A DNA stretch of 64,000 nt from Hamadaea flava. Lineage in GTDB: Bacteria > Actinomycetota > Actinomycetes > Mycobacteriales > Micromonosporaceae. The notes under the pieces are model-generated. The model was not told where the DNA came from. It saw nothing but the letters and a program-made list of their open reading frames with translations, and made no database searches. The stretch spans positions 1,550,001-1,614,000 of the forward strand of contig NZ_JAMZDZ010000001.1 of assembly GCF_024172085.1 (NCBI RefSeq). Reading direction: 5' to 3'. Within the stretch, counting starts at the first letter, position 1, and every line of letters starts with the position of its first letter. This document shows positions 12,775-53,577 of the stretch, piece by piece. The position numbers were made by a program, and so were the translations under genes.

Positions 12775-12795
12775 GCGACGCCTTGGCAACCAGGG

Positions 12796-13675: not shown

Positions 13676-13681
13676 GACCTC

Positions 13682-13687
13682 AGCGTA
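13682..13687 (-). promoter_or_regulatory. -10 element for the YjbR-like gene
   Basis: Read on the minus strand, TACGCT ends 6 nt before ATG 13675, the same spacing as other leaderless candidates in this window. Confidence 0.4.
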
Positions 13688-13805
13688 GGACGGACGCCGC
13701 CTTCGCGCGGTCGAATCGCAACCTTCCAATGTAGAGCCATCGTGGCACATTCTCGTGACCTTGACCCCCTGGAAGGTGTCGGACGGTTGTTCTAACGTTG
13801 ACTCT

Positions 13806-26173: not shown

Positions 26174-26944
26174 TCAGACGTCGAGATACTCGCCGACCCG
26201 CAGGACGTGCGGCCGGACTCCGGTGCCGTAGAGCGCCTCGGCGAACAGCGGCCCCGGCTGAGTCAGCACAGATCCCATGAATCGCCGCAGTCCCAACGGA
26301 TGCAGCGTTCCCCAGTGCACGGGGATCGCCTGCGACGCCCCGGACAGCACGGCCGCCCGAGCCGCCGTACGCGGATCCATGTGGCCGGGCCCGAGGGTGG
26401 GACCCCAGCCCCACACCGGGACGACCGCCACGTCGAGCCGTCCGGTGCGGGTGGCGTACCGGAGATCACGGAAGGACTGGTGCAGCCCGGTGTCGCCGGC
26501 CAGCCAGACCGACCCGTCCGGGGTGTCGACGACATGGCCGACGGCCTCGGCGGACGGTCCGCGCGGTTCGCGGCGACCCTGGTGCTCGGCGTGAACAGCG
26601 GTGACAGTGACTCCCGCGCCGAGATGCGTACCGTCGCCCACGGTCGCTTCGATCACGCCGTCGACGCCCTGGCGGCGCAGCCACGCGCCCGATCTCGGCG
26701 GCGCGAGGACGACCGGCGCACGCAATGCCCGCAAGGACGGCAGGTCGCAGTGGTCGTGATGCAGGTGGGAGACGAGCACGGCGTCGACCGGCGGACCACG
26801 CCGAGCCAGGTGCGCCGCCACCTCCGGCAGGGGCTTGGCCCGGACGAGTCCGCCGATCCGGCGGCGGACCAGCGGATCGGCCAGCAGGCGCAGACCGGGG
26901 ACTTCGATGAGTACCGCCGAGTGCCCCAGCCAGGTGATCCTCAT
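26174..26944 (-). CDS. Metallo-beta-lactamase-fold hydrolase (UlaG/RomA-like)
   Basis: A 256-residue metallohydrolase. The metal site is visible as SHLHHDHCD (HxHxDH-type), with further ligands in WLAGDTGLH and the late PVHWGTLHP. The start MRITWLGHSAVLIEV is characteristic of the UlaG/YcbL-like branch, which hydrolyses phosphodiester, lactone or N-acylethanolamine-type substrates. ATG 26944 overlaps the stop of the upstream phosphodiesterase fusion gene (ATGA), so both are translated from one mRNA. The shared phosphoester chemistry suggests a lipid or nucleotide substrate, but this is inference. Confidence 0.88.
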   Translation of the reverse strand: MRITWLGHSAVLIEVPGLRLLADPLVRRRIGGLVRAKPLPEVAAHLARRGPPVDAVLVSHLHHDHCDLPSLRALRAPVVLAPPRSGAWLRRQGVDGVIEATVGDGTHLGAGVTVTAVHAEHQGRREPRGPSAEAVGHVVDTPDGSVWLAGDTGLHQSFRDLRYATRTGRLDVAVVPVWGWGPTLGPGHMDPRTAARAAVLSGASQAIPVHWGTLHPLGLRRFMGSVLTQPGPLFAEALYGTGVRPHVLRVGEYLDV

Positions 26945-29034
26945 GACTCGTCCGGCTTGGCGCGTACTCCGCACCGTTCGAGCCAGCGCACGAGTTGCCG
27001 GTGCACGAGGTCCGCGCCGTAGAGGACGGCCTCACCGTCGACGGACCGGTCCAGCAGGTCGTCGTCCAGCGGCCAGTCGGCCGGGTGCACGAGCGCGGCC
27101 CGGTTCTGCCAGCCGCCTAGGCCGCCGTGGCAGCCGACCAGTTCCTCGAAGGCGTGCACCTCGCCGGTCCGCTCGTCGAAGGTCGAGTGGACGATGATGT
27201 CGGGCGCGGTCGACATGGCCGCAACCCGGGCAAGGTCCGCGGCGGCGCGCGGCCCGAACGGCACCAGCGGGTCGGTCCCCTCGATCACCGCGTCGGTCAG
27301 CACGTGGACGCCCGCGGGTCCGATCGCCAGCGGACCGCGCTCGCTGTCCACGACCACGAATCCGATCCCGGGCTCGGTGAGCAGTCCCGGCACGAGGCCG
27401 GGGAACTCGCGCTCCAGCGTCCGCCACGGCACGCGGCCCGGCAGCCGCGGAAACCAGACCAGCCCGAGGTTGCCGGACCCGGCCACCACCAGCTCCGGGC
27501 GGCCGATGGCGCTCAGATCGTGGCGAGGTCCGAGCACCATGCCCGCGCCGCCCGCCTGCTGTTCGCGGCGGGCGCTCCACTGCGAGGTGGTACGCGTGAC
27601 GCTGAGCACCTGAGTGAGCATGGCGTTGACCGGACCCCACGCCTCCACCGCCTGGGTCTCGTCCACCGTGGCCGACGGGGTGGCCCCGATGCGCTCCCGC
27701 ACGGCGGCTTCGAGGGTTCGGCCGGTGAGTTGGAGGAAGGTGGCGCCCTGGCTCTGACCGTGGTCGGAGAGAACCACGAACCGATAGCGCCGCGGCGCGG
27801 CCGCCGCGACCTGCTCCAATGTGCTCAGTACGCGGTCCACCCCGCGCAACGCCGCGAGCGACTCGGCTCGGGCGACCCCGGCGTGGTGGGCGATCTCGTC
27901 GTAGTCCACGAAGTCGACATAGATCACGGGCGCGCCCGCCATCATGTGCTCGGCCACCAGCGCCACGTTCAGGTCCCGCAGCACGGCGTTGGTGGCGCCC
28001 CGCAGCGCGACGTAGGAACCGTGCCGGCGGATACGTGGTTCGACGCCGCGCAGGCGTTGCTGGCGTCCCTGGTACAGCTCCTTGATCATCTCTCCGACGG
28101 TCAGCACCAGCGCCCGGGCGAAGACGAAGGGGCTGGCGAAGAACCGCAGGTATGCCCGGCCGGGGCCGAGGCCCTGCGTACCGGAGACGCGGCTCATCAC
28201 CATGAGCGAGGTGGCGGCGTCGCCGCTGAACATGTTGGACACGCTGACGCCGCCGCCGGCGAGCAGTCCCCGCCCGTCCGACAGCCGCGACTCCACCAGC
28301 GCCGCGTCGGCCGGGCGATTGGTGACCACCAGCCGCCCCAGTTCCTTGTCGTACCAGCGGAAGGCGCAGATGCCGTCGTTGGTGCCGTGCAGGAGAGCGG
28401 CCTGGCTGGCCGGCGTCGTCGACGGTACGCGCGCCCACCACTGCGTCATGTCGTGGCTGCCGGACCGGACCCAGCGGGCGAGGGTCGGCAGGTCGCCGGA
28501 GAGCACACCGAACCGCAACACGGGATAGGGCATCCCGTCGATCTGCACCACGACGACGCCCTCCGTGTCGTCACCGGAGTCGGTGGGATGACGTCGCCTA
28601 CCGCGCCGGATCAGGTCCGAGACCAGATAGGAGCTGTCGTTCACGCCGAGCAGCCAGCGGGTCACCGCGAGGATGATCGCCACCACGAAGAACGTGCCGA
28701 GGAACGCGCCCACGCCGCTCATCGACGCGCCCGGGACGATCAGCACGGCGACCCAGAGCACGAGGAGCTGAACGACGAGGCCGACCGTGAGCGCCATGAC
28801 CGCCCCGGCCTTGCCGGCCAGCAGGCGCAGCAGCGGCCGGGCGACCGCGTCGACCACGCCCGTCGCGGCGGCCAGGACGATCGCGGCCCACCACGGAGCC
28901 AGCTCGAAGCCCTCCACCAGCCACGACGCCACGAGCAGCGCCACCGCCGTCGGCACCAGGCCCAGCAGTGCGTCGCGTACGTCGCGGGCGCCCGCGCGGT
29001 AGCGGAGTCGTCGGCTGGGGTCGGTCACCTCCAT
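26941..29034 (-). CDS. Holin-like membrane domain fused to a type I phosphodiesterase/alkaline phosphatase-superfamily domain
   Basis: A 697-residue fusion. Residues 1-135 hold four hydrophobic helices of the mycobacterial-type 4-TMS phage holin superfamily. From about residue 165 an alkaline-phosphatase-superfamily domain begins (VVVVQIDGMPYPVL), with the nucleophile region VPSTTPASQAALLHG, metal ligands in DFVDYDEIAHHAG and LSDHGQSQG, and a final CHGGLGGWQ. It should be a membrane-anchored phosphodiesterase or phosphatase, facing out or in depending on topology. The fusion is known among actinobacteria but its substrate is not. It is coupled to the downstream metallohydrolase by a 4-bp overlap. 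Confidence 0.85.
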   Translation of the reverse strand: MEVTDPSRRLRYRAGARDVRDALLGLVPTAVALLVASWLVEGFELAPWWAAIVLAAATGVVDAVARPLLRLLAGKAGAVMALTVGLVVQLLVLWVAVLIVPGASMSGVGAFLGTFFVVAIILAVTRWLLGVNDSSYLVSDLIRRGRRRHPTDSGDDTEGVVVVQIDGMPYPVLRFGVLSGDLPTLARWVRSGSHDMTQWWARVPSTTPASQAALLHGTNDGICAFRWYDKELGRLVVTNRPADAALVESRLSDGRGLLAGGGVSVSNMFSGDAATSLMVMSRVSGTQGLGPGRAYLRFFASPFVFARALVLTVGEMIKELYQGRQQRLRGVEPRIRRHGSYVALRGATNAVLRDLNVALVAEHMMAGAPVIYVDFVDYDEIAHHAGVARAESLAALRGVDRVLSTLEQVAAAAPRRYRFVVLSDHGQSQGATFLQLTGRTLEAAVRERIGATPSATVDETQAVEAWGPVNAMLTQVLSVTRTTSQWSARREQQAGGAGMVLGPRHDLSAIGRPELVVAGSGNLGLVWFPRLPGRVPWRTLEREFPGLVPGLLTEPGIGFVVVDSERGPLAIGPAGVHVLTDAVIEGTDPLVPFGPRAAADLARVAAMSTAPDIIVHSTFDERTGEVHAFEELVGCHGGLGGWQNRAALVHPADWPLDDDLLDRSVDGEAVLYGADLVHRQLVRWLERCGVRAKPDES

Positions 29035-29085
29035 ATCTTCTCAGCAGATGAGCAGATATACGGCTTATGACCGCAAAGCGGAGGA

Positions 29086-29763
29086 TCAGGCGGCCCGTTC
29101 GCGCCCCTCGAACCAGCGCCGCTCGGCCTCGGCGTGCATCTGCTCGGCGTACGCCAGCCCGGCCCGGCTGAGCATGCGGCAGGCCAGGATGTAGCGGCGG
29201 TACCCCGAAAACAGCAGGACCAGCATGATCGGGACGGCGACCAGCCACCACCGCGACTGGACCGCCGACAGATACCCGGCCAGCGCCGCCAGCGGCCAGG
29301 GCGCCGCCGCGAAGATCTGGACCTGCGTGCACATCCAGCGGAAGTCGTCGACGAACGGGCCGAGGCTGTACAGCTCGGGTGGCACCACCCCGTGCACCAC
29401 GTATTCGGTGGTCGGCTCCTCGCGGAAGTTGCCGTAGGAGGGTCGCCGGTCGCCCAGCTCCGGCCGGCGCAGATGGATCTCTCGGACCTCCTTCGGCACG
29501 GGCAGCACCCGCAGCCCGATCATCACCAGCCAGATCGTCGCCCAGCCGAGCCCGAACGCGATGATCGTCCCGGCGACGAAGCCGAGATATTTGCCCATCG
29601 TCTGGGCGACCTCGTAGAGGACGCCGACGACGCCGGTGGCCGCCGACAACGACGGCAGGCCGGGCCGCGCCATGAGGTAGACCAGCACGAGCCAGCTGTA
29701 GCCGATCACGATCGGCGCCGCGATCCTCCCGAACGCCCGCGAAAGCACTGTCACGCGAGCCAT
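29086..29763 (-). CDS. Membrane protein of unknown function, 225 aa
   Basis: The protein has about four membrane helices: IVIGYSWLVLVYLMARPG, a second around KYLGFVAGTIIAFGLGWATIWLVMI, and a C-terminal pair near APWPLAALAGYL and WWLVAVPIMLVLLFSGYRRYIL. Between the pairs is a hydrophilic loop of about 70 residues with Arg/Glu/Pro-rich sequence. I do not recognise the family. It lies 51 bp upstream of the phosphodiesterase fusion gene on the same strand and may belong to the same operon. Confidence 0.65.
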   Translation of the reverse strand: MARVTVLSRAFGRIAAPIVIGYSWLVLVYLMARPGLPSLSAATGVVGVLYEVAQTMGKYLGFVAGTIIAFGLGWATIWLVMIGLRVLPVPKEVREIHLRRPELGDRRPSYGNFREEPTTEYVVHGVVPPELYSLGPFVDDFRWMCTQVQIFAAAPWPLAALAGYLSAVQSRWWLVAVPIMLVLLFSGYRRYILACRMLSRAGLAYAEQMHAEAERRWFEGRERAA

Positions 29764-29847
29764 CGAACGCCGTCATGCTTCACGCGGCCATCCCCCGGGC
29801 GGCGGACGGGGCGTCGGATTGCCGATAGTGGATTCCCGGCGGTCGGC

Positions 29848-29853
29848 TAAGGT
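29848..29853 (+). promoter_or_regulatory. -10 element for the APH-like gene
   Basis: TAAGGT ends 7 nt before ATG 29861 and no ribosome site is visible, which supports a leaderless transcript and this start. Confidence 0.45.
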
Positions 29854-29860
29854 CCCCGCC

Positions 29861-31345
29861 ATGGAGCAACCGGACGAGTTCCGGCAGCTTGCCGACTATC
29901 TCGGGACGGACAGCGCCGACGCCGTCCGCGGCTGGTGCCGGGCCAACGGCCATCGCGTACGCGTTCCGCGGCCGCCCTGGCGTTCGTCGGACGGCTACTC
30001 CGGCGCCTGGCTGCACAGCCTCCTGGTCGACCGGGGCCGGGTCTCCTACAAGGTGCTCGTCAAACGCATCCCGCCGTGGCCGGAGAACCCGTCCTCACCG
30101 GGCTGGCCGACGGGCGAACCCGCCCGGCATCGGTTCTTCCTAGACGACGACCCCACTGGTTTCGCCCGGGATCATCTGGTGGGCCAGCGGTTCGACGCGC
30201 TCACGACTCAGTCGGGCCATGTGCTGATGTTCCAGGATCTGGCGGCCGACGGCGGCACGACCGTCCCGCTGGCCGAAGTCCCACCCGAGCGCCTTGCCGA
30301 CGCCTGCGCGCTCGTGCTCGGCGGAGTGACCGGGTCCTGGAACGACTACCGGTTGTCCCGGCCGTCGGTCTCGGTCAGCCGGTTCCTCCACGATGAGGTC
30401 GGCGCCACCGTCGCGTCCGGCGGAACGCTGAACGGCTGGGCCCGGCGAGCGGGACTGCTGGACATCCGCGACGCCTGGCTCATGGTCGATCCGGCCGGAC
30501 CGGTCCTGCCCAATCCACTGCCGTCGGCCGCCGGGCACTGGTGGGACGGGACCCCGCCCCCCATCGACGTGCTGAGCGGGCGTACGCACGGCGACCTGCA
30601 TCTGCTGAACGTCCTGATCCCGGTGACGCCGGACGGCGTACCCGATCTCGGTGCGTATCGGATCATCGACCTCGCGACCGCCCGGGAGACGGGATCGCTG
30701 ACCCGGGATCTGGTGACGATGCTGCTGTCGGCCATCGGCGGCGGGCTGGACAGTCTTCCCGAGGACCGTTGGCAACCGCTGATCCGGCATCTGCTGGACC
30801 TCGGCCGGGGTGACGGACCGGAGCCGCCGTTCGCGGTGACGACGGCGTTGTGCGAGACCTTCGCCCGGACGGTGTCGCGCACCCGGACCGGGTCCACCGG
30901 AGCGTGGCAGCTTCAGTACTGGCTGAGCCTGCAGGCGCTTGGGCTCGCCTTCACCGCGTACGCACGCTTCCGCCCGGCGGTCCGCTGGTGGTTCTTCCAG
31001 CTGGCCGCGTACGCGGCGGGCGCGGCGTTGCGGGTGCTGGCCCCCGGCCGCGTCGCGCCGAGAACCGCTCGCCTGGTGCCGAACCCGTTCCAGGTTGGGC
31101 AGACCGCGACCGACCAGACCGGTACGCCGCTCTCGGCGTACGACCGGAAGATGCCGGAACCGGACGACGAGGCTGGACTCGTCGCGCTCTTCAACGAGGC
31201 GGTCCGGCTGGAGGCGACCGACACCGCGCTGGCCTTGCGGCGGTATCAGCAGGTGTTCGTGCGGGCCAGGTCGGTGCTGGGCGCGGACCATCAGGTCACC
31301 GTGCGGGCCGAGGCGGCCCTGCGACGGTGGGATCTGCGCCGCTAG
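29861..31345 (+). CDS. Kinase-fold (APH-like) protein with C-terminal TPR-like segment
   Basis: A 494-residue protein. Near the middle is the catalytic-loop signature THGDLHLLNVLI (HGDxxxxN) followed by the metal-binding YRIIDLATA, the arrangement of aminoglycoside-phosphotransferase and related small-molecule or protein kinases. An N-terminal ATP-lobe is less clear. The last 50 residues (ALRRYQQVFVRARSVLGADHQVTVRAEAALRRW) resemble the TPR repeat found in NB-ARC/STAND proteins. It converges on the Shedu-like gene with a 4-bp 3' overlap, inside a cluster of conflict-type genes. Whether it phosphorylates a partner of the module is unknown; antibiotic resistance is unlikely given the length and tail. 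Confidence 0.7.
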   Translation: MEQPDEFRQLADYLGTDSADAVRGWCRANGHRVRVPRPPWRSSDGYSGAWLHSLLVDRGRVSYKVLVKRIPPWPENPSSPGWPTGEPARHRFFLDDDPTGFARDHLVGQRFDALTTQSGHVLMFQDLAADGGTTVPLAEVPPERLADACALVLGGVTGSWNDYRLSRPSVSVSRFLHDEVGATVASGGTLNGWARRAGLLDIRDAWLMVDPAGPVLPNPLPSAAGHWWDGTPPPIDVLSGRTHGDLHLLNVLIPVTPDGVPDLGAYRIIDLATARETGSLTRDLVTMLLSAIGGGLDSLPEDRWQPLIRHLLDLGRGDGPEPPFAVTTALCETFARTVSRTRTGSTGAWQLQYWLSLQALGLAFTAYARFRPAVRWWFFQLAAYAAGAALRVLAPGRVAPRTARLVPNPFQVGQTATDQTGTPLSAYDRKMPEPDDEAGLVALFNEAVRLEATDTALALRRYQQVFVRARSVLGADHQVTVRAEAALRRWDLRR

Positions 31346-32181
31346 CCTTCCAACGGGTCGAGCTCGCCCCGCTCGTAGAGTTCCAGGGTCTGGTCCACAC
31401 TGGCCATCAGCTCCTGGTAGGTCATGATCTCCAGGCCCACCAACCGGCTGCTGAAGGTACGCAGGGTGTTGCGGACGCCGTCCTTGACCTTCTCCGTCGC
31501 GTAGGCGGGATGTCCGATCAGGACGGTCGCGAGCGCCCGCTTGGACTCGACGCCGAGCTTCTCGCGGATCAGCCCTTCCTGGGCCTCCACCGTGTGCAGG
31601 TGGTTCATCGTCTTCTGCACCAGGCTGTCCACCAGCGGCCCGACCCGTAGACCGTCGTCGGCGCGGCCGATCAGGTCGGGCACGTTCGCCGGGCCGATGG
31701 TGACGAGGTGGATCGCGCCGTCGGAGCGCATCAGCGCGAGGTCGACCGTCGTCAGGATGTCGATGTCCTGCAGGTCGACCGGCGGCATGTAGCGACCGCC
31801 GAAGACCCAGGGCTGCGCGCGGATCGCCGCCCGCATCTCGTCGGCCGTCCGCGTCGCGTCGTTGACCGCCTGATGCAGCGCCTTGGCGCCCTTGCGGCGC
31901 CGGGCCAGCTCGATCAGGCTGCCGAACCTAGTCGCGCCCTCCACTTCGGCCAGTGCCTTGGCCAGCGAGTCGTTCTCCACGACCGCTCCGAGGAAGCGCT
32001 GGAGCACCGGAAGGTCGCCTCGGCTCGCGGATTCGGCGAGCTGCTGGGTGAGCCCGTGGACGAGATCGGCCGCCGCGCCGTCGCCACCCGGGCCGCCGCC
32101 GCTCTGCCCGGTCGACTCGGTGCTCAGCAGGGCCTGCAATCGGCGGATCTCCGGATCGCGCAAGCGATCCACGCTGTCCAT
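31342..32181 (-). CDS. Shedu (SduA/DUF4263)-like protein with altered active site
   Basis: A 279-residue protein matching the Shedu-type domain order. QPWVFGGRY lies at residues 123-131, a core VDLALMRSDGAIHLV follows, then the C-terminal ALATVLIGHPAYATEKVKDG and LEIMTYQELMASVDQTL. Shedu proteins are PD-(D/E)xK nucleases acting in antiphage defence. Here Asp147 is kept but the E-x-K triad of the next strand reads Thr161-Ile-Gly163, so nuclease activity may be lost or use other residues. The start is uncertain: 32181 gives a natural N-terminus, but in-frame ATGs reach 32334. It is divergent from the large NTPase and convergent with the kinase-fold gene. Confidence 0.7.
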   Translation of the reverse strand: MDSVDRLRDPEIRRLQALLSTESTGQSGGGPGGDGAAADLVHGLTQQLAESASRGDLPVLQRFLGAVVENDSLAKALAEVEGATRFGSLIELARRRKGAKALHQAVNDATRTADEMRAAIRAQPWVFGGRYMPPVDLQDIDILTTVDLALMRSDGAIHLVTIGPANVPDLIGRADDGLRVGPLVDSLVQKTMNHLHTVEAQEGLIREKLGVESKRALATVLIGHPAYATEKVKDGVRNTLRTFSSRLVGLEIMTYQELMASVDQTLELYERGELDPLEG

Positions 32182-32425
32182 TCGGCGGTCGGCGTACCGG
32201 CGTCTCCCGGCTCGCGCCGCAACGCCGGGCGGGTCGATCGGAATCATGATTGTCTGCGCGCGCACATCTCCCGGCTGGCGAGGCATGGGCCGCACTCTAG
32301 AGCAGAATTCCGCATTCTCTCCAGTCGTCATCACGACTCGCCGCCGCCCCGCCGGGACGAGTGACGCGGTCTACCATACGCGTCGGCATGAGCGTCACCG
32401 ACGTTCTCTCGGAAGCAGGTTCTCG

Positions 32426-35400
32426 ATGTCCGAAGCAGACCGCGGCCGCGTCCGGATCGGGACCGCCGACGGCTCCCCGTACGCCGCCGCGGGCGTACTG
32501 ATCGCCCCGCGCATCGTTCTGACCAGCGCGGATGCCTGCCCTCCGGGCGCCGCGCCGACGGTCACGCCGGCCGGCTCGGACCACCGGTACGCCGCCGAAC
32601 GGATCTGGCCGCGCAGCGGCGCGGAATCCGCGGTCGCGCTATTAGAGATCATCGATCACGAATGGGTGAATAGTGCGTTCGTCACCCGATGGGGCGTACT
32701 CACGAGTAGTGACCAATGGATCACGTCGGAGGTGGACGGAGATCATCCGGTCGCGATCGAGATCAATAATTCGGCCACCCTTCCGGACGGTTCGCGAGAA
32801 TGCCGGCCCGCTCTCACCGATCAATTGCCCGCCGGTACTGCTGTATATAGTGGACAGATCTTGGTGGGCGTGCTGGCCCGCCCCGGTGAGCCCGGGCGCC
32901 GGCCCCTGGTGCGGCCGGTCGCCCCGCTCCTGGCCGACGAGGACTTCCGGGCGATCGTCGACCAGGCGGCCGGACGGCGGATCCGCGTCGAACCCGTCGA
33001 ACTCGCCGGGACGATCCGGCGCTGGCGACCGGACCTGGACGCCAGCCGGGCCGCCACGCTGCTGCTGCCGGAACACGAGGTCGTCCCGCTGCACGGCCGG
33101 GAACTGCTGACGCACCAGATCCTTCAGTGGTGCGCCGAACGGCGTCCCAGCTCCGCCGCCCTGCTGGTCGGGCCGGCCGGGCAGGGCAAACGGCGGCTCG
33201 CCCGCCACGTCGCGGACAGCCTGCGCGACACCGGGTGGGCCGTGGGCGAACTCGCCGACCGGCCGGCCGAGGATTGGCTGGAGGGCGTGGCGCACTCCCG
33301 GATGCCGGTGTTCCTCATCGCCGACGCGGATCGGCACCTGCCGGCGATCACCGCGCTCGCCCGGACGGTGCTGCCGACGGGCGGCCGGGTGCGAGTGCTC
33401 CTGCTGGCCGCCGATCCGTCGCTGCCACCCGATCCGGCCCTCGACATCCTGTTCGAGGACCGGGTGCACCGGCTCGACCCGATCGCCGCCGACGCGGAGG
33501 CGATGGCGCAGCGGCTCACCGAGGCGACCGTCGCCTTCGGCGGCTTGCTGTCCCTGCCGCCCGAGCCGTGGCTGCCCGGACCCGACGGCTGGCTCGTCGC
33601 CGGCGCACGCCGGTACGCCACCACCCCCGACGCCGGCGACGCGCTCCAGCTCCACGTGGCCGCGCTCGCGAGCCTGCTGACCGGGGCGCCGGACGATCGG
33701 CGCTCGGCGGTCGGCGTACTGCTCGACGAGGAGGAGTTCCGATGGCGACAAGCGACCGAGACGCTCCCGGCCGACGCGAAGACGTCGTGGTCCGCGGCGT
33801 TGGCGGCGGCTCTGCTGTTCGGGGCGGCCGACGAGGCGACCGCCGTGCAGACCCTGCGGATGACGATGCGTGGAGTCGCGGAGTCAGCGATCGGTGAGAC
33901 GGCGGCCTGGATTCGCGGGCTCTATCCGCCCGACGACGCCGACGGAACGTTCTGGGGCACGCTGCGGCCCCGGCCGCTGCTGCTGGAACACATCGCACAG
34001 AGCTGGACGGGGTCGTCGCTGCTGGAGGCGATGCTGCCCTCGGTGGAACCCGAGCAGGCCCGCCGGGCGTTGTCCCTGCTGTTGGCCACGGAGGACGCCG
34101 CGTTGCTCGACCGGGTGGCCAAGCTCGCCGGCGACCGCGTACGCGAACTCGGCCCCGCACTGATCGAGGCGGCGTACGCACAGCCGGCCGCACTGACCAT
34201 CGTGGAGCGGATCGTCGACGACCCGGACAGCGATCTCACCGACGACCTCTGCCGGACGCTGCTCGACCGGGTGCCGCCGACCGCCGGGCCGCTCGCCGAG
34301 GTCGCCCGGCGGCTGCACGAACGGCTGATCGCGGCGTACGAGGTCGCCGTGGAGGAGGGCCAGGATCGGGTTCGGCCCGCGCTCGCTGCACAGCTCGCGG
34401 CGTACGCCGTGCTCCGATCCGAGGTCGGTTCGGCGACGGCTGCCGCAGATCTCGCCGGTCGGGCCGTCGAGCAGTATCAGTGGCTCGTCGAATCCGGCGA
34501 CCGCGGCGCGGGCTACGTGATCTCGTTGGCCGAGAGCCGTCAGTTGTACGCCCGGCTGCAGGCCGGGGCCGGGCGGCCGATCGCTGCTGCGGACCTCGCC
34601 GGGCAGGCCGCCGGCGTCTACCGCACGCTCGCCGAGGCGACCGGTACGCACGGACGCCCCGAGCTGGCGGACGCGTTGACCACGCAGGCCGCGTACGCCG
34701 TCCAGGCAGGCGATCTGCCGGGTGCTGAGGCGGCGCTGCGGGAAGCGGTCGGCGTACTGGATGTGCTGGTCGACGGCGAGTCGACGGCCGACGCACGGTT
34801 CGACCTTTCGGGCCGGCTCGTGGACGCCGCGTCCCAGCTGGCCGAGGTGCTCTGGGACGACGGGCAGGCCACAGCCTCGCTGGCCGCGCGCGAGGACGCC
34901 GTGCGGGCCGCCCAGCGCATGTACGCCGTCGAACCCGCCACGGCCCGGCCGCTGCTGATCGACTGCCTGGACGCGGTCGCCCGGGCACAGCTCCAGCTGC
35001 GGGGAGCCGAAGCCGCCCTGGACGCGCTGCGGCGGTCGCTGCGGTTGTGCCGTGAAGCGGCCGAGGCGGATCCCGCCACGCAGCTGCCGGCCCTGGCATC
35101 GGCGGCGATGGCGCTGTCGGTCCGGCTCAGCGAGGCCGGGCAGCCCGCCGCCGCGCTCGACGCCGCCACCGAGGCCATCGAGGCACTGGCCCAGGCGAAC
35201 AAGGCCGCCCCGGGTTCGGTCCTCGCCGAACTGGCTTTGGCCCAGCACACCTTGAGCCTGCGGCTGGCCGAGGCCGGTCGCTGGCGGGAAGCCGCCCACT
35301 CCGCTGATCAGGCGCTGACGGCGTACACCCGGGCGCTCCACGATGGACGGACTGAGCTCCGGACCGAATTCGCCGCCGCACTGGTCAACCGGGCCGCGAT

Positions 35401-36925
35401 CCACGCCACCCGCGACCAGCACACCGAAGCCGCCCAGATCGCGCAGCAGGCGATCGGGTTGCTGTCGACGCAGTCGGCCCCGGGACGGCCGGGCGACGGC
35501 GGTGCGGCGAACCGGATCCTGGCCGCCGCCTATACCAACGCGGCCGTGGCGCTCAGCCACCTCGGCCGGCGCGACGAGAGCCTCACCCTCGTCTCCCGCG
35601 CGGTGGAGACAGATCCGGCGGACATCCCGGCGACGGACCAGGTCCGGGCCCTCAGCCTGCACCGGGATCTGCTGATGGGCGCGAACCGGCCGAAGGACGC
35701 GGCGGACGTCGCGGCCCGAATCGTCGTCCTGTACGACCAGTTCGGTCCCCGCGAACCGGACGTCTACCGAGGCCCGTACGCGGTCGCCCTGCACGAGGCC
35801 GCGCGCTGCTTCGCCGCCTTCCGCAACTGGGATACCGCCATCGCGTACGCGCGCCGGGCCACCACCGAGTACGCCGCCGATCAGCGCCCGGCCCGACCGT
35901 GGCTCGACGAGCGGACCGCGGTCGCCATGCTCCTGTGCACCTGTTACGCCGAGACGAACCGGGGCGCGGAGGCGGCCGCCGCCGCCGAACGGGCGGTCGC
36001 CTTGCATCGGGAGGCGACCGGCGACGGGGACGCCCGCGATCCGGCCGACCTGGCCGACACCCTCGACGCGGTCGCCGATCTGCCGACCGACGCGTTGGGC
36101 CGCGACCTGGCCCGCTCGTACGCCGAGCAGGCGGTCGCGCACCGTCGACCGGTCGCGATGGGCGGCAACCCCGAGCAGATGCGCAAACTGGTCCGGGCGT
36201 TGCGCCGGTCGGCCAAGCGGCAGGCCGAGGCAGCCGGAGCCGAGGAGGCGTTGCCGGCGGCGCAGGAGTCCGTGGCGCAGGCCCGGCTGCTCAAGGAGTT
36301 CTCCCGGGTCGACGGCATGGCGGAGATCGCGGTGTGCCTGCGGGACCTGTCGGAGTACCTCGCGAGCAGCGGCCGTGAAGCGGCCAGCCGGGACGCCGCC
36401 GCGGACGCCGCGCGCGAAGCCGCCGACGAGTACCGGCTGCTCGCCGCCGACGACCCGGCCCGCTACCTAACCGAGTACGCGGGTGCGCTGCTCGACCTGT
36501 CCCACCGGCAGGCCCGGCTCGACGCGTGGACGGATGCCCTGCTGTCGGCCGAGGCGGCCGCCGAGGCCCTGGAGCGCGTACCACCGGCGACGGTCGCCGA
36601 CCGGGCACGGCTCGGCCAGATCCTCCTCCAGGCCGCGCTGTGCCTGAACGAGTTGCACCAGAAGGAACGGCAGTACGAGGTGACCCTGCGCCTCGTGGGA
36701 CTCTACGACTCGATGGCGCGGGACGACCGGCGGTACCAGCACGATCACGCCGTGGCCCTGCGCAACCTCGCCGAGGTGCGCGCCGGCCGCAAGACCCTGC
36801 CCGACCGTCGCGATGCGGCCCGGCAGGCCGTCGAGCTCCACCGCATCCTCGCCGAACGCGACTCGGTCCGCTATGACGCGGAATTGAAGGCATCCCGGCG
36901 GACGCTGGAGACCCTGCGCCGCTGA
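32426..36925 (+). CDS. Degenerate trypsin-like domain + P-loop NTPase + TPR protein (STAND-like)
   Basis: A 1499-residue multidomain protein. Residues 1-175 look like a trypsin-fold domain (GVLIAPRIVLTSADAC), but the catalytic His position reads Asp/Ala and no GDSGG is present, only TAVYSGQILVGVLA, so it is probably a non-catalytic sensor. A P-loop follows: Walker A GPAGQGKR at 249-256 and Walker B MPVFLIADAD at 293-302. From about residue 590 to the end lie many Ala-rich helical pairs of TPR type. The layout is that of signal-transducing NTPases of conflict systems. Codon 73 is a rare TTA inside an AT-rich patch. The next gene, 11 bp away, is a putative pore effector. Confidence 0.8.
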   Translation: MSEADRGRVRIGTADGSPYAAAGVLIAPRIVLTSADACPPGAAPTVTPAGSDHRYAAERIWPRSGAESAVALLEIIDHEWVNSAFVTRWGVLTSSDQWITSEVDGDHPVAIEINNSATLPDGSRECRPALTDQLPAGTAVYSGQILVGVLARPGEPGRRPLVRPVAPLLADEDFRAIVDQAAGRRIRVEPVELAGTIRRWRPDLDASRAATLLLPEHEVVPLHGRELLTHQILQWCAERRPSSAALLVGPAGQGKRRLARHVADSLRDTGWAVGELADRPAEDWLEGVAHSRMPVFLIADADRHLPAITALARTVLPTGGRVRVLLLAADPSLPPDPALDILFEDRVHRLDPIAADAEAMAQRLTEATVAFGGLLSLPPEPWLPGPDGWLVAGARRYATTPDAGDALQLHVAALASLLTGAPDDRRSAVGVLLDEEEFRWRQATETLPADAKTSWSAALAAALLFGAADEATAVQTLRMTMRGVAESAIGETAAWIRGLYPPDDADGTFWGTLRPRPLLLEHIAQSWTGSSLLEAMLPSVEPEQARRALSLLLATEDAALLDRVAKLAGDRVRELGPALIEAAYAQPAALTIVERIVDDPDSDLTDDLCRTLLDRVPPTAGPLAEVARRLHERLIAAYEVAVEEGQDRVRPALAAQLAAYAVLRSEVGSATAAADLAGRAVEQYQWLVESGDRGAGYVISLAESRQLYARLQAGAGRPIAAADLAGQAAGVYRTLAEATGTHGRPELADALTTQAAYAVQAGDLPGAEAALREAVGVLDVLVDGESTADARFDLSGRLVDAASQLAEVLWDDGQATASLAAREDAVRAAQRMYAVEPATARPLLIDCLDAVARAQLQLRGAEAALDALRRSLRLCREAAEADPATQLPALASAAMALSVRLSEAGQPAAALDAATEAIEALAQANKAAPGSVLAELALAQHTLSLRLAEAGRWREAAHSADQALTAYTRALHDGRTELRTEFAAALVNRAAIHATRDQHTEAAQIAQQAIGLLSTQSAPGRPGDGGAANRILAAAYTNAAVALSHLGRRDESLTLVSRAVETDPADIPATDQVRALSLHRDLLMGANRPKDAADVAARIVVLYDQFGPREPDVYRGPYAVALHEAARCFAAFRNWDTAIAYARRATTEYAADQRPARPWLDERTAVAMLLCTCYAETNRGAEAAAAAERAVALHREATGDGDARDPADLADTLDAVADLPTDALGRDLARSYAEQAVAHRRPVAMGGNPEQMRKLVRALRRSAKRQAEAAGAEEALPAAQESVAQARLLKEFSRVDGMAEIAVCLRDLSEYLASSGREAASRDAAADAAREAADEYRLLAADDPARYLTEYAGALLDLSHRQARLDAWTDALLSAEAAAEALERVPPATVADRARLGQILLQAALCLNELHQKERQYEVTLRLVGLYDSMARDDRRYQHDHAVALRNLAEVRAGRKTLPDRRDAARQAVELHRILAERDSVRYDAELKASRRTLETLRR

Positions 36926-36936
36926 CCGGCCTACTC

Positions 36937-37848
36937 ATGGATCTGGAGACGCGGTTGACCACACAGCAGCCCACGATTCTGGCTCGGCAGAAAGATCCGG
37001 AGATCCACGCCCTGCTCCGGGCGATGTCCGTGTCCCACAAACGGGCGCAGCGGCTCGACCTCGCCCAGACCGTGCTGTCCCTGGGGATCGCGGCGTCCAG
37101 CCTCGCCGCCACCTTCGTCGACGTCGCCACCGCCCTCACGATCATCGGCGCGCTGTGGGCCGTGATCTATTCGGTGGGCCTGGTCTCCTGGGCCGACAAC
37201 GAGTTGCGCCGGGCCGCCGTCCTGCAGGAGATGCTGGACGTACGCCTGTTCCGGCTGCCCTGGAACCCGGTCATCGCCGGCGACCAGGTCGGCCACGAGG
37301 AGATCAATCGGCTGAGCACTCGGTATCGGGGCCGCCAGGACATGATCGAGCACTACTACGAGGTCCCCGACCTGCCCGCCCCCTACGACGTGGTGGCCTG
37401 CCAGCAGCAGAACCTGGGCTGGGGCATCCGAGTCCGCCGCCGGTACGCGTACGTGGTGCTCAGCGGGGTCGTCGCGTGGTCCGTCCTCGGCGTCGTCATC
37501 GGCGCCTGGACCGGGCTGACCGTCGGCGACGTCGTGCTGCGGTGGTACGTGCCGTCGCTGGGCGCGATCCTGCTCGGCCTCGACATCTTCCGCAGCCAGC
37601 GGGACGTCGCGGAGGAACGGGGCCGGGCGCTGCGCATCATGCGCGACCGCGTCCGCGAGTCCATCCGCACGCCCGGCGTCGACCTCGCTGGGTTCGCCCG
37701 GCAGGTGCAGGACGTCATCTACCTCACCCGGCAGCGGACGCCGCGCGTACCGGACTGGTTCTTCCTGCGGTACCGGGCCGGCGACCGCGCCGATTTCAAG
37801 GCGATGATGGACGAGCTGGCGGGCACCCTCGCCACTCGCGTCCCGTAA
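36937..37848 (+). CDS. S-4TM-family putative pore-forming effector
   Basis: A 303-residue membrane protein. Its order matches the SMODS-associated 4TM effector family: RQKDPEIHALLRAMSVSHKRAQRLD, a helix pair (LSLGIAASSLAATFV, TIIGALWAVIYSVGLVSW), then LQEMLDVRLFRLPWN at about 96-110, and EHYYEVPDLPAPYDVVACQQQNLGWGIRVRRRYAYVV leading into a second helix pair. Such proteins are predicted to perforate the host membrane when a partner senses infection, and usually sit beside a cGAS-like nucleotidyltransferase. Here the upstream partner, 11 bp away, is the trypsin-like/NTPase/TPR protein. The start could be ATG 36937 or TTG 36955, which has a better ribosome site (GGAG). Confidence 0.78.
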   Translation: MDLETRLTTQQPTILARQKDPEIHALLRAMSVSHKRAQRLDLAQTVLSLGIAASSLAATFVDVATALTIIGALWAVIYSVGLVSWADNELRRAAVLQEMLDVRLFRLPWNPVIAGDQVGHEEINRLSTRYRGRQDMIEHYYEVPDLPAPYDVVACQQQNLGWGIRVRRRYAYVVLSGVVAWSVLGVVIGAWTGLTVGDVVLRWYVPSLGAILLGLDIFRSQRDVAEERGRALRIMRDRVRESIRTPGVDLAGFARQVQDVIYLTRQRTPRVPDWFFLRYRAGDRADFKAMMDELAGTLATRVP

Positions 37849-37863
37849 CGCGACCGGGCTGCG

Positions 37864-37869
37864 TACGAT
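37864..37869 (+). promoter_or_regulatory. -10 element for the small membrane-protein gene
   Basis: TACGAT ends 6 nt before GTG 37876. This suggests that the last gene of the cluster also has its own leaderless promoter. Confidence 0.4.
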
Positions 37870-37875
37870 CTTGCC

Positions 37876-38433
37876 GTGAGCGAGACCCCCACGCCCGCGT
37901 ACCGTCACCTGCGCATCAGCTTGAGCATCGCGGCCCTGGCCGCGTCCGTGGCTGCCACCGTCGGAGTCGCCCTGGCGGCCGACGACGTCGCCGCGCTCCG
38001 CGAGGCCCGCGAGCGATGGCAGGACGTCGGCTTCCTATTGATCAGCTGGTACGCGTTCGCGGTGCCGGTCGGCACGCTCGCGCTGTCACCCTGGGCGCGC
38101 CGAGTGGGCCGGTCGGCGCGGCTGGGCTGGCGGAACGCCGGCCTCGTGCTGGGGCATGGGGTGCTGGTGGCCGCGCTCGCCTGGTTCTTCGGCGACATCG
38201 TGGCCGACTACTTCAGCGGCAATCGGGGCGGCGGCTCGAAGGGCGCATATCTGACCTGGTTGATCGCGACGCTCCCTGCTTTCGCCGCCGTCGCGCTGGC
38301 GGGCGGGCTGTTCCCCCGCCCCGCTGCCCCTAGAACTCACGGCGTCGTCGCCGGAGTCGCCGCCGTGAGCTGGATCTGCGGCGCGCTCCCCTTCCTCTTC
38401 CTCATCGTCTACGCCTTCGCCGAGTTCGCGTGA
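37876..38433 (+). CDS. Small polytopic membrane protein of the same cluster
   Basis: A 185-residue protein with about five membrane helices (LSIAALAASVAATVGVALA, VGFLLISWYAFAVPVGTLAL, AGLVLGHGVLVAALAWFF, LIATLPAFAAVALAGGLF, GALPFLFLIVYAFAEFA). There is no recognisable family signature. It begins 27 bp after the S-4TM-like gene on the same strand, so it could be an accessory or immunity-type membrane partner, although its own -10 element argues for partly separate expression. Its TGA stop codon is the first three bases of a palindromic repeat element. Confidence 0.65.
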   Translation: MSETPTPAYRHLRISLSIAALAASVAATVGVALAADDVAALREARERWQDVGFLLISWYAFAVPVGTLALSPWARRVGRSARLGWRNAGLVLGHGVLVAALAWFFGDIVADYFSGNRGGGSKGAYLTWLIATLPAFAAVALAGGLFPRPAAPRTHGVVAGVAAVSWICGALPFLFLIVYAFAEFA

Positions 38434-47095: not shown

Positions 47096-47776
47096 TCACG
47101 GCGTGAAGCGGTACCCCATGCCGGGCTCGGTGAGCAGATGGCGCGGTCGCGACGGATCCGGTTCGAGCTTGCGGCGCAGCTGCGCCAGGTATTGCCGCAG
47201 ATACTGGGTCTCCGTCGCGTACGTCGGGCCCCACACCTGCTGGAGCAGCTGACGCTGGGTGATCAGCATCCCGGGATTGCGGACCAGGGCCTCCAGCAGC
47301 AGCCACTCGGTCCGGGTGAGGTGCACCGTGTCGCCGGTGGCCGCGTCCGTCACGGTGTGGGCGGTCAGATCCACCTCGTACGCACCGATGCGCGCGGTCG
47401 CCGGAGCCTCCGTGCCGCCGAGCCGCCGGGTGACGGCGCGAAGGCGGGCAAGCAGCTCATCCATGTTGAACGGCTTGGTGACGTAGTCGTCGGCCCCGGC
47501 GTCGAGGGCGTCGACCTTGTCCGCGCTGCCCGCCCGGCCGGACACCACGATGATCGGCACCGGCGACCACGTACGCAGCTTACGGATCACCTCGACGCCG
47601 TCGACGTCGGGCAGGCCGAGGTCGAGCACGATGAGATCGGGGTGTTCGTTGGCCGCCGCGTGCAACGCCTGGGTGCCGTCGGCCGCCACCACGACCTCGT
47701 ACTGCCGGGCGGTCAGGTTGATCCGCAACGCCCGCAGGATCTGCGGCTCGTCGTCGACGATGAGGACCCGGGTCAC
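47096..47776 (-). CDS. kdpE: KdpE potassium response regulator
   Basis: A 226-residue OmpR-family regulator. The receiver has Asp52 (VLDLGLPDVDG) and Lys in VTKPFNMDEL; the winged helix contains LTRTEWLLLEALVRNPGMLITQRQLLQQVWGP and TQYLRQYLAQLRRKLE, which match KdpE. ATG 47776 overlaps the KdpD stop (ATGA). Phosphorylated by KdpD under potassium limitation or ionic stress, it should activate the kdp operon; the TTGACG half-sites upstream of kdpF are candidate targets. Confidence 0.93.
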   Translation of the reverse strand: MTRVLIVDDEPQILRALRINLTARQYEVVVAADGTQALHAAANEHPDLIVLDLGLPDVDGVEVIRKLRTWSPVPIIVVSGRAGSADKVDALDAGADDYVTKPFNMDELLARLRAVTRRLGGTEAPATARIGAYEVDLTAHTVTDAATGDTVHLTRTEWLLLEALVRNPGMLITQRQLLQQVWGPTYATETQYLRQYLAQLRRKLEPDPSRPRHLLTEPGMGYRFTP

Positions 47777-50331
47777 ATATCCCCCTGTGGAAGCGCGATA
47801 GGCAGGCTCACGATCATCGTGACACCCCCGCCCGGGGTGGTCTGCGGTTCGACGCTGCCGTCCATCGCCTCGGCGAGTCCACGCGACAGCGCCAGGCCCA
47901 GCCCGACGCCGGTGGTGTTGTCCCGGTCGCCCAGCCGCTGGAAGGGCTGGAAGACGTTCGCCCGGTCCTCCGCCCGGATGCCCCGGCCGTGGTCGACGAC
48001 CCGGATCTCCACCCGGTCGTCGTACTCGCTGGCGTGGACCGACGGCGGCCGGTCCGGCGGGCTGAACCGCAGCGCGTTGGCGAACAGGTTGGCCAGAATG
48101 CGTTCCAGCAGCGCCGGGTCGGCGGCGATCTCGGGCAGGTCGTCCGGCAGGTGCACCTCGACGGCGGCGGCAGAGGGGCCGAGATCTCGCAGGGCCAGCC
48201 CGGCGACCTCGCCGACGCTCGTCGGCTGAACGGCCATGCCGAGCGCACCGGCCTGCAACCGGCTCATGTCGAGGAGGTTGTCGACGAGCCGGGTCAGCTT
48301 GTCCAGCGACTCATCGGCGGCGGCCAGCAGCTCCCGCCGGTCCTCGTCGGCGAACTCCACGTCCGGGCTGCGCAGGCTGCCGACCGCTGCCTTCGCGGAC
48401 GTCAACGGCGTACGCAGATCGTGGCTGACGGCCTGGAGCAGCGCCGTGCGTACGCGGTCGGCCTCGGCGAGCGGTCCGGCAGCGGCGGCCTGCGCGGCGA
48501 GGCGCTCCTGCCGCAGGGCGGTCGCGGCCTGCGCGGCGAACGCCTCCACCACTCGCTGGTCGCCCGCGTCGAGGGGATGTCCCTTGAGGACGAGCGCGAG
48601 ATCGTCGTCGACCGGCACGTCCACGTCACCGTCGGCCGGGCTGACCGAGGGCTCGTTGCCGACGCTCGCGGCGACCTGCCACTTGGCCGGATCCCGGCGC
48701 ATGTCCGGGGCGCTGGGCGTGTCCGGGCGGCGTTCCAGGAGGGTGACGCTGGCCAGGGTGAACGTCTCCCGCAGCTGCTCCAGCAGGGCCGGCAGCGGTC
48801 GCTCACCGCGCAGGACGCTCCCCGCGACGGTGGCCAGCGTCTGCGCCTCGGCTCGGGCGCGCGCCGCCTCAGCCGTACGCCGGGCGGCCAGGTCGACCGT
48901 GGCGCTCACGGCGACGGCGACGAGCACGAAGACGAGCAGCGCGAGCAGGTTCTCGTGCTCGGCGATCGTCCACTCGTGGATCGGCGGAGTGAAGTAGTAG
49001 TTGAGCACCAGGAAGCTGGCGACGGCGGCGACCACTGCGGGCCAGATCCCGCCGACGAGGCCGATGAGCACGACCGCCGAGAGGAAGATCAAGATCTCGC
49101 TGGGCAGGGACAGCACGCTGCGGGACTCGTCCAACGCGAAGGTGAGGATCGGCATCAGCAATGCCGTCAGGACGAAACCCGCGACCCGGCGTCGCCACGT
49201 CAACCCGCTGCCGAAGGTGAGTCGTCCGGAGAATCGGCGGCGACCGCGCTTGGTCTCCTCGTGGGTCACGAGGTGGACGTCGATCGGCCCGGACTCGGCG
49301 GTGGTGGTGACGCCGACGCCGGGTGAGAAGATCTGGGCGAACCGGCCTCGGCGGCTCGCGCCGAGCACGAGCTGGGTGGCGTTGACCGCCCGGGCGAAGT
49401 CGAGCAGGGCCGTCGGGATGTCGTCGCCGATGACCTGGTGATAACTGCCGCCGACCCCCTCCACCAGTACGCGCTGCCGGGCGAGGTTGGCCGGATCGGT
49501 TCCGGAGGCGAGCCCGTCGCTGCGGGCGACGTGGACGGCGAGCAGTTCGGCGCCCTTGGTCCGGTCGGCGATCCGCCCGGCCCGCCGGATCAGGGTGTCG
49601 CCTTCGGGGCCGCCGGTCAGCGCCACGACGACCCGTTCCCGGGCTTCCCAGACGCCGCCGATGTTGTGCTCGGCCCGATAGCGTTCGAGCTGGTCGTCCA
49701 CCTTGTCAGCAAGCCACAGCAGGGCCAGTTCCCGTAGTGCGGTGAGGTTGCCGACCCGGAAGTAGTTGCCGAGCGCGGCGTCGACCTTCTCCGGCCCGTA
49801 CACGTTGCCGTGGGCCATCCGGCTGCGCAGCGCCTCGGCCGTCATGTCGACCAGCTCGATCTGGGCCGCCTGCCGGACGACGGCGTCGGGGACGGTCTCC
49901 TGCTGATGGATCTTGGTGATCGCCTCGACGACGTCGTTCAACGACTCGATGTGCTGGATGTTGAGCGTGGTGATCACCGAGACGCCCGCGTCGAGCAGCT
50001 CGGTGATGTCCTGCCAGCGCTTGGCGTTGCGGCTGCCCGGCACGTTGGTGTGGGCGAACTCGTCGATCAACGCGACCGCGGGCCGCCGGGCCAGCACGGC
50101 GTCGACGTCCATCTCGGTGAACGTCGCCCCGCGGTACGCCATGGTCTTGCGCGCGACGACCTCCAGGTCGCCGATCATCGCCTCGGTCAGTCTGCGGCCA
50201 TGCGTCTCCACGAGGCCGACGACGACGTCGGTCCCCCGTTCCCGGCGCCGGTTGCCCTCCTCGAGCATCTTGTAGGTCTTGCCGACCCCCGGCGCGGCCC
50301 CGAGATAGATCCGCAGGGTTCCGCGTGGCAC
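47773..50331 (-). CDS. kdpD: KdpD turgor/potassium-sensing histidine kinase
   Basis: An 852-residue full-length KdpD. It has the N-terminal KdpD domain with Walker-type GAAPGVGKTYKMLEEGN and LIDEFAHTNVPGSRNAKRW, then a universal-stress-like segment (VLVEGVGGSYHQVIGDDIPTALLDFARAVNATQLVLGASRRGR). Four closely spaced membrane helices (DUF4118), a GAF-like region and a kinase core with His in QAVSHDLRTPLTSAK follow. AAGGAGG 5 nt upstream settles the start at GTG 50331. A longer open frame to 50421 reads through a palindromic repeat and is not real. It is the fifth gene of kdpFABCDE. Confidence 0.95.
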   Translation of the reverse strand: MPRGTLRIYLGAAPGVGKTYKMLEEGNRRRERGTDVVVGLVETHGRRLTEAMIGDLEVVARKTMAYRGATFTEMDVDAVLARRPAVALIDEFAHTNVPGSRNAKRWQDITELLDAGVSVITTLNIQHIESLNDVVEAITKIHQQETVPDAVVRQAAQIELVDMTAEALRSRMAHGNVYGPEKVDAALGNYFRVGNLTALRELALLWLADKVDDQLERYRAEHNIGGVWEARERVVVALTGGPEGDTLIRRAGRIADRTKGAELLAVHVARSDGLASGTDPANLARQRVLVEGVGGSYHQVIGDDIPTALLDFARAVNATQLVLGASRRGRFAQIFSPGVGVTTTAESGPIDVHLVTHEETKRGRRRFSGRLTFGSGLTWRRRVAGFVLTALLMPILTFALDESRSVLSLPSEILIFLSAVVLIGLVGGIWPAVVAAVASFLVLNYYFTPPIHEWTIAEHENLLALLVFVLVAVAVSATVDLAARRTAEAARARAEAQTLATVAGSVLRGERPLPALLEQLRETFTLASVTLLERRPDTPSAPDMRRDPAKWQVAASVGNEPSVSPADGDVDVPVDDDLALVLKGHPLDAGDQRVVEAFAAQAATALRQERLAAQAAAAGPLAEADRVRTALLQAVSHDLRTPLTSAKAAVGSLRSPDVEFADEDRRELLAAADESLDKLTRLVDNLLDMSRLQAGALGMAVQPTSVGEVAGLALRDLGPSAAAVEVHLPDDLPEIAADPALLERILANLFANALRFSPPDRPPSVHASEYDDRVEIRVVDHGRGIRAEDRANVFQPFQRLGDRDNTTGVGLGLALSRGLAEAMDGSVEPQTTPGGGVTMIVSLPIALPQGDM

Positions 50332-50347
50332 CTGATCCTCCTTCTCA

Positions 50348-50420
50348 TGATCATTGCGCCGGCCATGCCGCTTCAGCGGACGTTTCGCCGCGCGAACCCA
50401 CATGGCTGGCGCAATGATCA
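50348..50420 (-). repeat. Palindromic repeat element, copy B
   Basis: A 73-bp element with 20-bp terminal inverted repeats: TGATCATTGCGCCGGCCATG and, at the other end, CATGGCTGGCGCAATGATCA. Its reverse complement aligns closely with copy A at 38431-38500. It sits in the 91-bp gap between kdpC and kdpD, where a folded hairpin would affect the mRNA. Confidence 0.88.
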
Positions 50421-50422
50421 CG

Positions 50423-51325: not shown

Positions 51326-51329
51326 TGCC

Positions 51330-53465: not shown

Positions 53466-53577
53466 GGGGTTTCCTTGAAAGCACGGGTGTGGAAGGGAAG
53501 GCCGTCAAGGCCTGACCGGTGCGGCGGGAGCAACGGGCGGAACCACCGCGATGGCACGACATGATGTTGATGATCAT
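53455..53577 (-). CDS. Possible 40-aa ORF bridging kdpA and kdpB
   Basis: ATG 53577 overlaps the kdpA stop (TGATG), and the frame runs through the 111-bp gap to overlap the kdpB start by 11 bp. The peptide starts [20 protein letters not shown] and is basic with three Cys; I recognise no family. Its only support is the perfect placement for translational coupling across a gap that is normally absent. It may be accidental. Confidence 0.25.

Follow-up and report, generated by a model that had tools for sequence, protein, structure and literature searches.

A 64,000-nucleotide stretch of the Hamadaea flava genome (the window, numbered from its first letter; the source genome is one 8.86-Mb contig) carries four neighboring genes that we treat as one module: a kinase of the aminoglycoside phosphotransferase (APH) type, an opposite-strand Shedu-like protein, a 1499-aa protein with a degenerate trypsin-like domain, an nSTAND NTPase and a TPR-type array, and a membrane protein of the S-4TM family. 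The four-gene grouping is real and more than chance because the same four genes recur at two loci, L029 and L030, of another genus. The kinase is a more constant partner of S-4TM than the NTPase is, so the wider core consists of kinase plus S-4TM. As to function, we are evenly balanced on the reading that this is an NLR-like conflict module, probably anti-phage and of the abortive-infection type, present as an 8.8-kb insertion. A preliminary description of this DNA, which had five genes as the module, knew of no named system with such a set, and a module of NTPase and S-4TM does look undescribed. The features of the four genes are as follows.

29861..31345, + strand: APH-type kinase, 494 aa, with the kinase at about residues 1-395 and a short helical/TPR-like tail.
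31342..32181, - strand: DUF4263/Shedu-like pseudo-nuclease (PADLOC SduA, E = 5.5e-38).
32182..32425, no strand: intergenic region upstream of both the Shedu-like and the NTPase gene, which run apart from it, by the gene coordinates; no sigma-70-type match was found in it.
32426..36925, + strand: 1499-aa protein of degenerate trypsin-like/nSTAND/TPR type, by Pfam and alignment; the proposed sensor.
32426-32980, + strand: degenerate trypsin-like domain of the 1499-aa protein, about residues 1-185.
33128-33403, + strand: Pfam match to the nSTAND NTPase of the 1499-aa protein, with Walker A at about residues 249-256.
About 34283-36925, + strand: long helical TPR-type C-terminal array of the 1499-aa protein (marginal TPR match).
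36937..37848, + strand: S-4TM membrane effector, 303 aa (PF18159, E = 1.4e-75; PADLOC 4TM effector, E = 7.3e-73).

The two best-scoring relatives of the NTPase among 200 genomes of the family are at L029 (Phytohabitans maris) and L030, both of genus g32, and both have the kinase, the opposite-strand Shedu-like gene, the NTPase and the S-4TM together. Identity to the window proteins is 38% in L029 and 31% in L030 for the kinase, 30% and 31% for the Shedu-like protein, 32% and 31% for the NTPase, and 49% and 52% for S-4TM. At all three loci the kinase gene and the Shedu-like gene run toward each other and overlap at their 3' ends (in the window their stop codons overlap in CTAG), and the Shedu-like gene and the NTPase gene run apart. 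What differs is the position of the S-4TM gene. It lies 3' of the NTPase gene in the window, where it begins 11 bp past the stop of the 1499-aa gene as first described, and 5' of the kinase gene in L029 and L030, where its overlap with the kinase rests on mechanical start codons (for every ORF, or open reading frame, outside the window the first start was taken mechanically).

The check suggested in the preliminary description was to collect homologs of the NTPase and tabulate their neighbors. The N-terminal part of the NTPase gives 27 matches in 26 of the 200 family genomes, its own included, of which 21 were fetched and 6 were not. S-4TM and Shedu-like neighbors are found at 3 of the 21 loci, namely the window, L029, and L030, and the check comes out negative at the other 18. 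Read literally, that count refutes the grouping; we do not take it as a refutation because the positives are the window and its two best relatives in another genus, and at the 18 negative loci the NTPase is a remoter member of the family, in some cases with a trypsin domain that looks intact. The fault lies in anchoring the search on the NTPase. Chance neighbors with no functional link would fit the restriction of all four genes to 3 loci and the many NTPase homologs that lack the others, but this is contradicted by a gene order conserved at 30-52% identity in another genus, by the strong kinase/S-4TM pairing, and by an empty site that spans exactly the four genes plus one (both below), and we consider it very improbable. 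Two independent units might instead lie side by side, one of kinase and S-4TM, the other of the pseudo-trypsin/nSTAND/TPR protein with a pseudo-Shedu regulator, as the usual lack of kinase or S-4TM beside NTPase and Shedu relatives and the shifted position of S-4TM in L029 and L030 would suggest. Such an arrangement is unlikely, given that L029 and L030 retain all four genes in the order kinase>, <Shedu, NTPase> with overlapping convergent ends, and that the NTPase part, present in cis in about half of the kinase relatives, is missing from the window kinase.

The models KIN2, NTP, SHEDU, S4TM, and SM used in the searches are home-made hidden Markov models. The kinase alignment against 397 genomes of the order yields 22 kinase-domain matches, which are the rows counted here, most of the 58 matching genomes being hit via the TPR tail alone; S-4TM is on the fetched locus in 16 of the 22. 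Starting from the other partner, PF18159 has 35 matches in 31 of the 200 family genomes, and among the 32 examined the kinase is on the locus in 16, a CD-NTase in 7, and neither in 9 (the other three matches are fragments, two in G172 and one in G055). A broad scan over one genome per species (84,980 species), with twelve kinase-linked S-4TMs as the query, finds 50 S-4TM loci, which by record title come without exception from actinomycete genera or a bin of Actinomycetota: 41 have the kinase (38 within 600 bp), 5 have a CD-NTase, and 4 have neither, 3 of these lying at contig ends. The pair is present in Micromonospora, Streptomyces, Actinomadura, Actinoallomurus, Nonomuraea, Frankia, Actinophytocola, Dactylosporangium, and Actinoplanes, among others. 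On the broad-scan loci there are 43 kinase/S-4TM pairs. The two genes are encoded on opposite strands in 27 of them and share a strand in 16, and the distance between them is mostly no more than a few hundred bp. In a sample of the phylum the kinase appears in 1 of 396 genomes, a weak negative with few candidates scored.

S-4TM serves as an effector of the cyclic oligonucleotide-based antiphage signaling system (CBASS). In a tree of S-4TM with 78 rows, identical rows being dropped, the kinase label changes 6 times versus a shuffled mean of 22.7, and the kinase-linked S-4TMs cluster apart from those of CBASS. An R165/R167/R169 patch in S-4TM is specific to the kinase-linked lineage. L112, L132, and L171 were labeled CBASS prior to testing and have no CD-NTase by a 4-sequence model; the record of L171 annotates an adjacent nucleotidyltransferase, and L112 ends near the gene. 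L226, which has the tree label "none", has a CD-NTase-like ORF (E = 6e-12). That the other recurrent partner is a CBASS-type CD-NTase suggests by analogy that S-4TM is effector-like here too. In the window protein the PF18159 match covers residues 13-294 of 303, that is, the full length, and the model (predicted local distance difference test, pLDDT, 93.2) is all-helical with long helix hairpins, so this gene was identified correctly at the outset. Orphan S-4TMs of genus g30 (L110, L115, L121, L127, L128, L130, L131) form one clade, and just 1 of these 7 genomes has a kinase-domain match.

The five ORFs of the interval first described show codon-position GC of the coding type. In a Pfam scan of 10 window proteins between 26174 and 41265, the kinase has only sub-threshold matches, to TCAD9 (E = 0.061) and EcKL (E = 0.1). 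Its AlphaFold model has a pLDDT of 85.9, the best solved relatives are APH-type kinases, and it retains the catalytic residues H-x-D-x(4)-N and the D of the metal-binding loop, with K68, D245, and D270 as catalytic positions. Judged by sequence and model, the window kinase belongs to the APH-type kinase superfamily and is predicted to have phosphotransfer activity, which bears out the earlier view of it as a kinase-fold protein with a TPR-like tail. PADLOC 2.0.0 has no match to it; with five relatives there are three without a match and two with generic TPR or MkoC only, and no specific model.

Many of the kinase relatives extend into an NTPase and repeats. Thresholded at E = 0.01, 32 full-length relatives have 25 TCAD9 matches (mostly weak), 13 AAA_16, 9 NACHT, 7 nSTAND_NTPase5, 4 NB-ARC, 9 TPR_12, and 3 WD40, and a Walker A pattern is found after the kinase domain in 21 of 43 proteins, one of which, L196, is probably chance. 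In other relatives, such as the Micromonospora form of about 800 aa, the tail that follows the kinase has no P-loop, and at many Micromonospora-type loci a kinase-repeat protein and S-4TM are the whole recognizable set. The NTPase may act in trans in the window, L029, and L030, by analogy with the fused forms, because there the kinase is short-tailed and the nSTAND-TPR protein is encoded separately.

Several loci vary this plan. At L205:10952-15868, from Actinoallomurus soli, a further split form may be present: the short kinase and S-4TM are next to two P-loop genes whose products seem to have hydrophobic N-terminal stretches. In some loci the S-4TM partner may be swapped for an effector of another type, NUDIX. 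The kinase-STAND protein of L140:5566-10689, which has a TIR_2-like stretch (E = 1.7e-4), adjoins not S-4TM but Sa_NUDIX (PF18167), a family named as SMODS-associated in Pfam; the kinase gene of L190:6587-9835 adjoins a NUDIX gene (PF00293, E = 1.1e-5); and that of L145:7144-10544 adjoins a 335-aa gene that by eye looks similar to the NUDIX type. At L136, L146, and L148 a gene of about 200-260 aa lies on the opposite strand just 3' of a kinase-STAND-TPR gene of about 1200 aa; in L146 the C-terminal part of its product matches HTH weakly, and it is a possible third component. The kinase protein of L207:4390-9864, from Actinomadura litoris, has a very regular WD40 array of 16 stretches (PF00400, E = 8e-153), possibly a fast-varying sensor. 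A Streptomyces plasmid (L169:6540-13722) has S-4TM between two kinase-domain genes, with transposase genes nearby, one of the IS3 family.

The kinase is likely a relay rather than an accessory because kinase-STAND or kinase-repeat protein plus S-4TM is the whole recognizable set in many loci. The preliminary description had a sensor NTPase opening a pore with the kinase as modifier, of which the NTPase and pore remain plausible and the subordinate place of the kinase is less likely. The kinase could also be a safety lock, with S-4TM kept silent by phosphorylation or binding and released once a phage inhibits or depletes the kinase or the NTPase, as in toxin/antitoxin or guard logic. The tightness of the 43 pairs agrees with a lock, as do the Micromonospora-type loci where nothing else is recognizable, but 6 of the 22 kinase matches lack S-4TM, an orphan S-4TM is tolerated without a kinase-domain match in 6 of 7 genomes, and the kinase-STAND-repeat fusions resemble receptors, so that a lock seems rather doubtful to us.

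The 1499-aa protein matches nSTAND_NTPase5 and TPR below their Pfam cut-offs, and a weak AAA_5 match (E = 0.098) lies inside it. Its relatives L031 and L032 exceed the cut-offs for Trypsin_2, nSTAND_NTPase5, and TPR, and L034 does for nSTAND_NTPase5; L031 adjoins a Trypco2 gene. The Walker A motif G-x(4)-GK, with K255 as its lysine in the window protein, is conserved in that protein and its L029 and L030 counterparts. Of the trypsin triad, His and Asp are replaced in all three, and Ser is replaced in the window and L030 and retained in L029, so the window protein lacks the catalytic His, Asp, and Ser of a trypsin-like peptidase; His and Ser are retained together in 5 of 11 aligned relatives. 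The first assignment as a degenerate-trypsin/P-loop/TPR protein is probably right.

The Shedu-like protein is likewise what it was first called by homology, its PADLOC match being strong and its Pfam SduA_C match (E = 7e-4) under the cut-off. The role then given to it, that of a modifier, fares less well. The nuclease E-x-K is gone in all three module proteins and is retained in 17 of 17 other aligned relatives (24 other genomes have a match, of which 17 were fetched and aligned). Because this active site is lost, the sequence makes an intact nuclease, and a modifier role through it, unlikely, and we propose instead that the pseudo-Shedu protein is a putative ligand-binding regulator. The divergent region between its gene and that of the NTPase (32182-32425) is a probable regulatory region.

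Two congeners, G001 and G003, of three searched in all, are informative on the borders of the unit. In blastn, positions 3377-11720 of L253, from G001, correspond to window 46160-37858 at 88% identity, and positions 11746-14662 to window 29078-26174 at 87%; both module flanks adjoin there, with 25 unmatched bp between them.

29079..37857: unit absent at the G001 empty site, 8,779 bp, by blastn against L253.
29086..29763, - strand: 225-aa membrane protein with about 3 hydrophobic segments by hydropathy; cargo within the unit.
37876..38433, + strand: 185-aa membrane protein, a chromosomal neighbor outside the unit by its congener copy and the empty-site border.

The unit holds the kinase, Shedu-like, NTPase, and S-4TM genes plus that of the 225-aa membrane protein, and is probably an 8.8-kb insertion in the lineage of the window, horizontally acquired. 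No target-site duplication or inverted terminal repeats are evident at its borders. Congener G003 retains the left flank, but adjoining other genes, and in the three congeners there is no match to the NTPase and none to S-4TM. The 225-aa protein has no Pfam match, faint partial matches only in 2 other genomes of 140, and no counterpart in L029 or L030; it is perhaps accessory. The 185-aa protein, which also lacks a Pfam match and is present in 11 of 150 family genomes, counting its own and G001, had been named as the fifth member. It is a bystander, outside the module because a 73% identical copy is found in G001, which lacks the module, and because it lies beyond 29079-37857. The five-gene module as first drawn therefore keeps its four recurring genes, loses the 185-aa protein, and gains the 225-aa one. 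A non-immune regulator of membrane state, in stress or development of actinomycetes, would accommodate the seven g30 genomes whose S-4TM has neither CD-NTase nor kinase. This is quite unlikely in view of the patchy distribution, including the three congeners, the empty site, an effector family held in common with CBASS, and NUDIX as the alternative partner.

In the mechanism we propose for an anti-phage module, the 1499-aa protein would be the sensor, with a ligand at its repeats or its pseudo-protease domain leading to nucleoside triphosphate (NTP)-dependent assembly. The sensor would signal to the APH-type kinase as relay, and the kinase would activate S-4TM, either directly, with S-4TM as its substrate, or through production of a phosphorylated small molecule; activated S-4TM would breach the membrane, and the infected cell would be stopped. 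The pseudo-Shedu protein would be a binding subunit, either a sensor or a safety lock, and not a nuclease. Gene content, conservation of the four genes, the empty site, the states of the active sites, the recurring pair, and the kinase-STAND fusions are direct observations; we infer the sensing, the signaling order, the pore action, and the defense role partly from the place of S-4TM in CBASS. A more specific version, to which we assign a low probability, is that the kinase makes a non-cyclic second messenger on the command of the STAND sensor, replacing the CD-NTase for S-4TM and NUDIX effectors; if so, messenger-based immunity would have one more pathway, with a small-molecule kinase at its base.

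A number of observations weigh against an anti-phage insertion with this circuit. The complete four-gene form is at 3 loci only, and relatives of the NTPase and of the Shedu-like protein are without S-4TM at 18 of 21 and 17 of 17 loci examined. The window match to nSTAND_NTPase5 (E = 3.5e-5) scores 24.1 bits versus a cut-off of 34, and that to TPR is marginal. The 6 of 22 kinase matches without S-4TM count here as well, and the pairing rate of 41 in 50 is biased by a query built from kinase-linked S-4TMs. The orphans of genus g30 indicate that a part in this circuit is not obligatory for S-4TM. Among phage records there was no match to the window S-4TM. Plasmid records matched S-4TM in 93 cases; the three that were opened had the kinase in one (the Streptomyces plasmid), a CBASS cyclase in one, and an annotated nucleotidyltransferase in one. 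The insertion rests on one congener, the G001 draft genome being 87% complete, and a deletion there is the less probable alternative.

As for the flanks, directly left of the unit (26941-29034) is a gene with N-terminal 4-TM holin-like and type I phosphodiesterase domains, conserved in G001 and G003, and to the right of the module (47773-55238) is ordinary potassium uptake: KdpD, KdpC, an E1-E2 ATPase, and KdpA.

The module links STAND/NLR-like sensors with CBASS membrane effectors, lineages usually treated apart, via a kinase of the small-molecule type. If the reading is true, S-4TM and perhaps NUDIX would be plug-in effectors that can take their signal from a source other than a cyclic nucleotide, and immune signaling would be added to antibiotic resistance and metabolism as a role of the APH fold. 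Small, cleanly bordered, and defined in its catalytic residues, the module lends itself to a test of each step.

Among known systems, Shedu (SduA, DUF4263) is a single-protein system; the window protein has a homologous C-terminal domain but lacks the catalytic E-x-K and has partners. CBASS with S-4TM shares the family PF18159, but CBASS-type loci have an adjacent SMODS CD-NTase, in whose place the window module has an APH-type kinase and a STAND NTPase. No SMODS CD-NTase match at E <= 1 is found among the 10 window proteins, and the 4-sequence model finds no CD-NTase in L029 (= L208), L030, L126, or L136. With the aminoglycoside phosphotransferase/choline kinase superfamily the kinases share fold and catalytic residues, but those of the window type are paired with S-4TM, and some relatives carry a STAND NTPase plus TPR or WD40 in the same protein.

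The NTP-dependent conflict systems of multicellular bacteria are also close. The accessible part of Kaur et al. 2020 (PMC7159879) describes trypsin-STAND fusions, Trypco domains, and a few active APH-like kinases; the window NTPase falls in a Trypsin_2-nSTAND5-TPR family, and the kinases match TCAD9. By contrast, "4TM" and "S-4TM" are absent from that part of the text, and here the kinase is a constant component and the trypsin triad is degenerate. In the accessible part of PMC10910872, a figure that deals with CRISPR-linked genes names TCAD9 among the domains that go with vWA-MoxR-VMAP systems; no vWA or MoxR-type component is present among the 10 scanned window proteins, which hence do not form a vWA-MoxR ternary system. 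Small-molecule kinases are mentioned in the accessible part of PMC8195603, where "4TM" and "Shedu" have 0 occurrences. Avs and bacterial NACHT proteins, in what is accessible of PMC10907252, share with the window STAND protein a sensor architecture of NTPase with C-terminal repeats, but the window effector is a separate, unfused membrane protein, and a kinase is added. In the literature searched, most subscription papers being outside its scope, no description of the kinase/S-4TM pairing was found. The kinase/S-4TM core is thus apparently undescribed, and the module appears to be a form of STAND-type conflict system.

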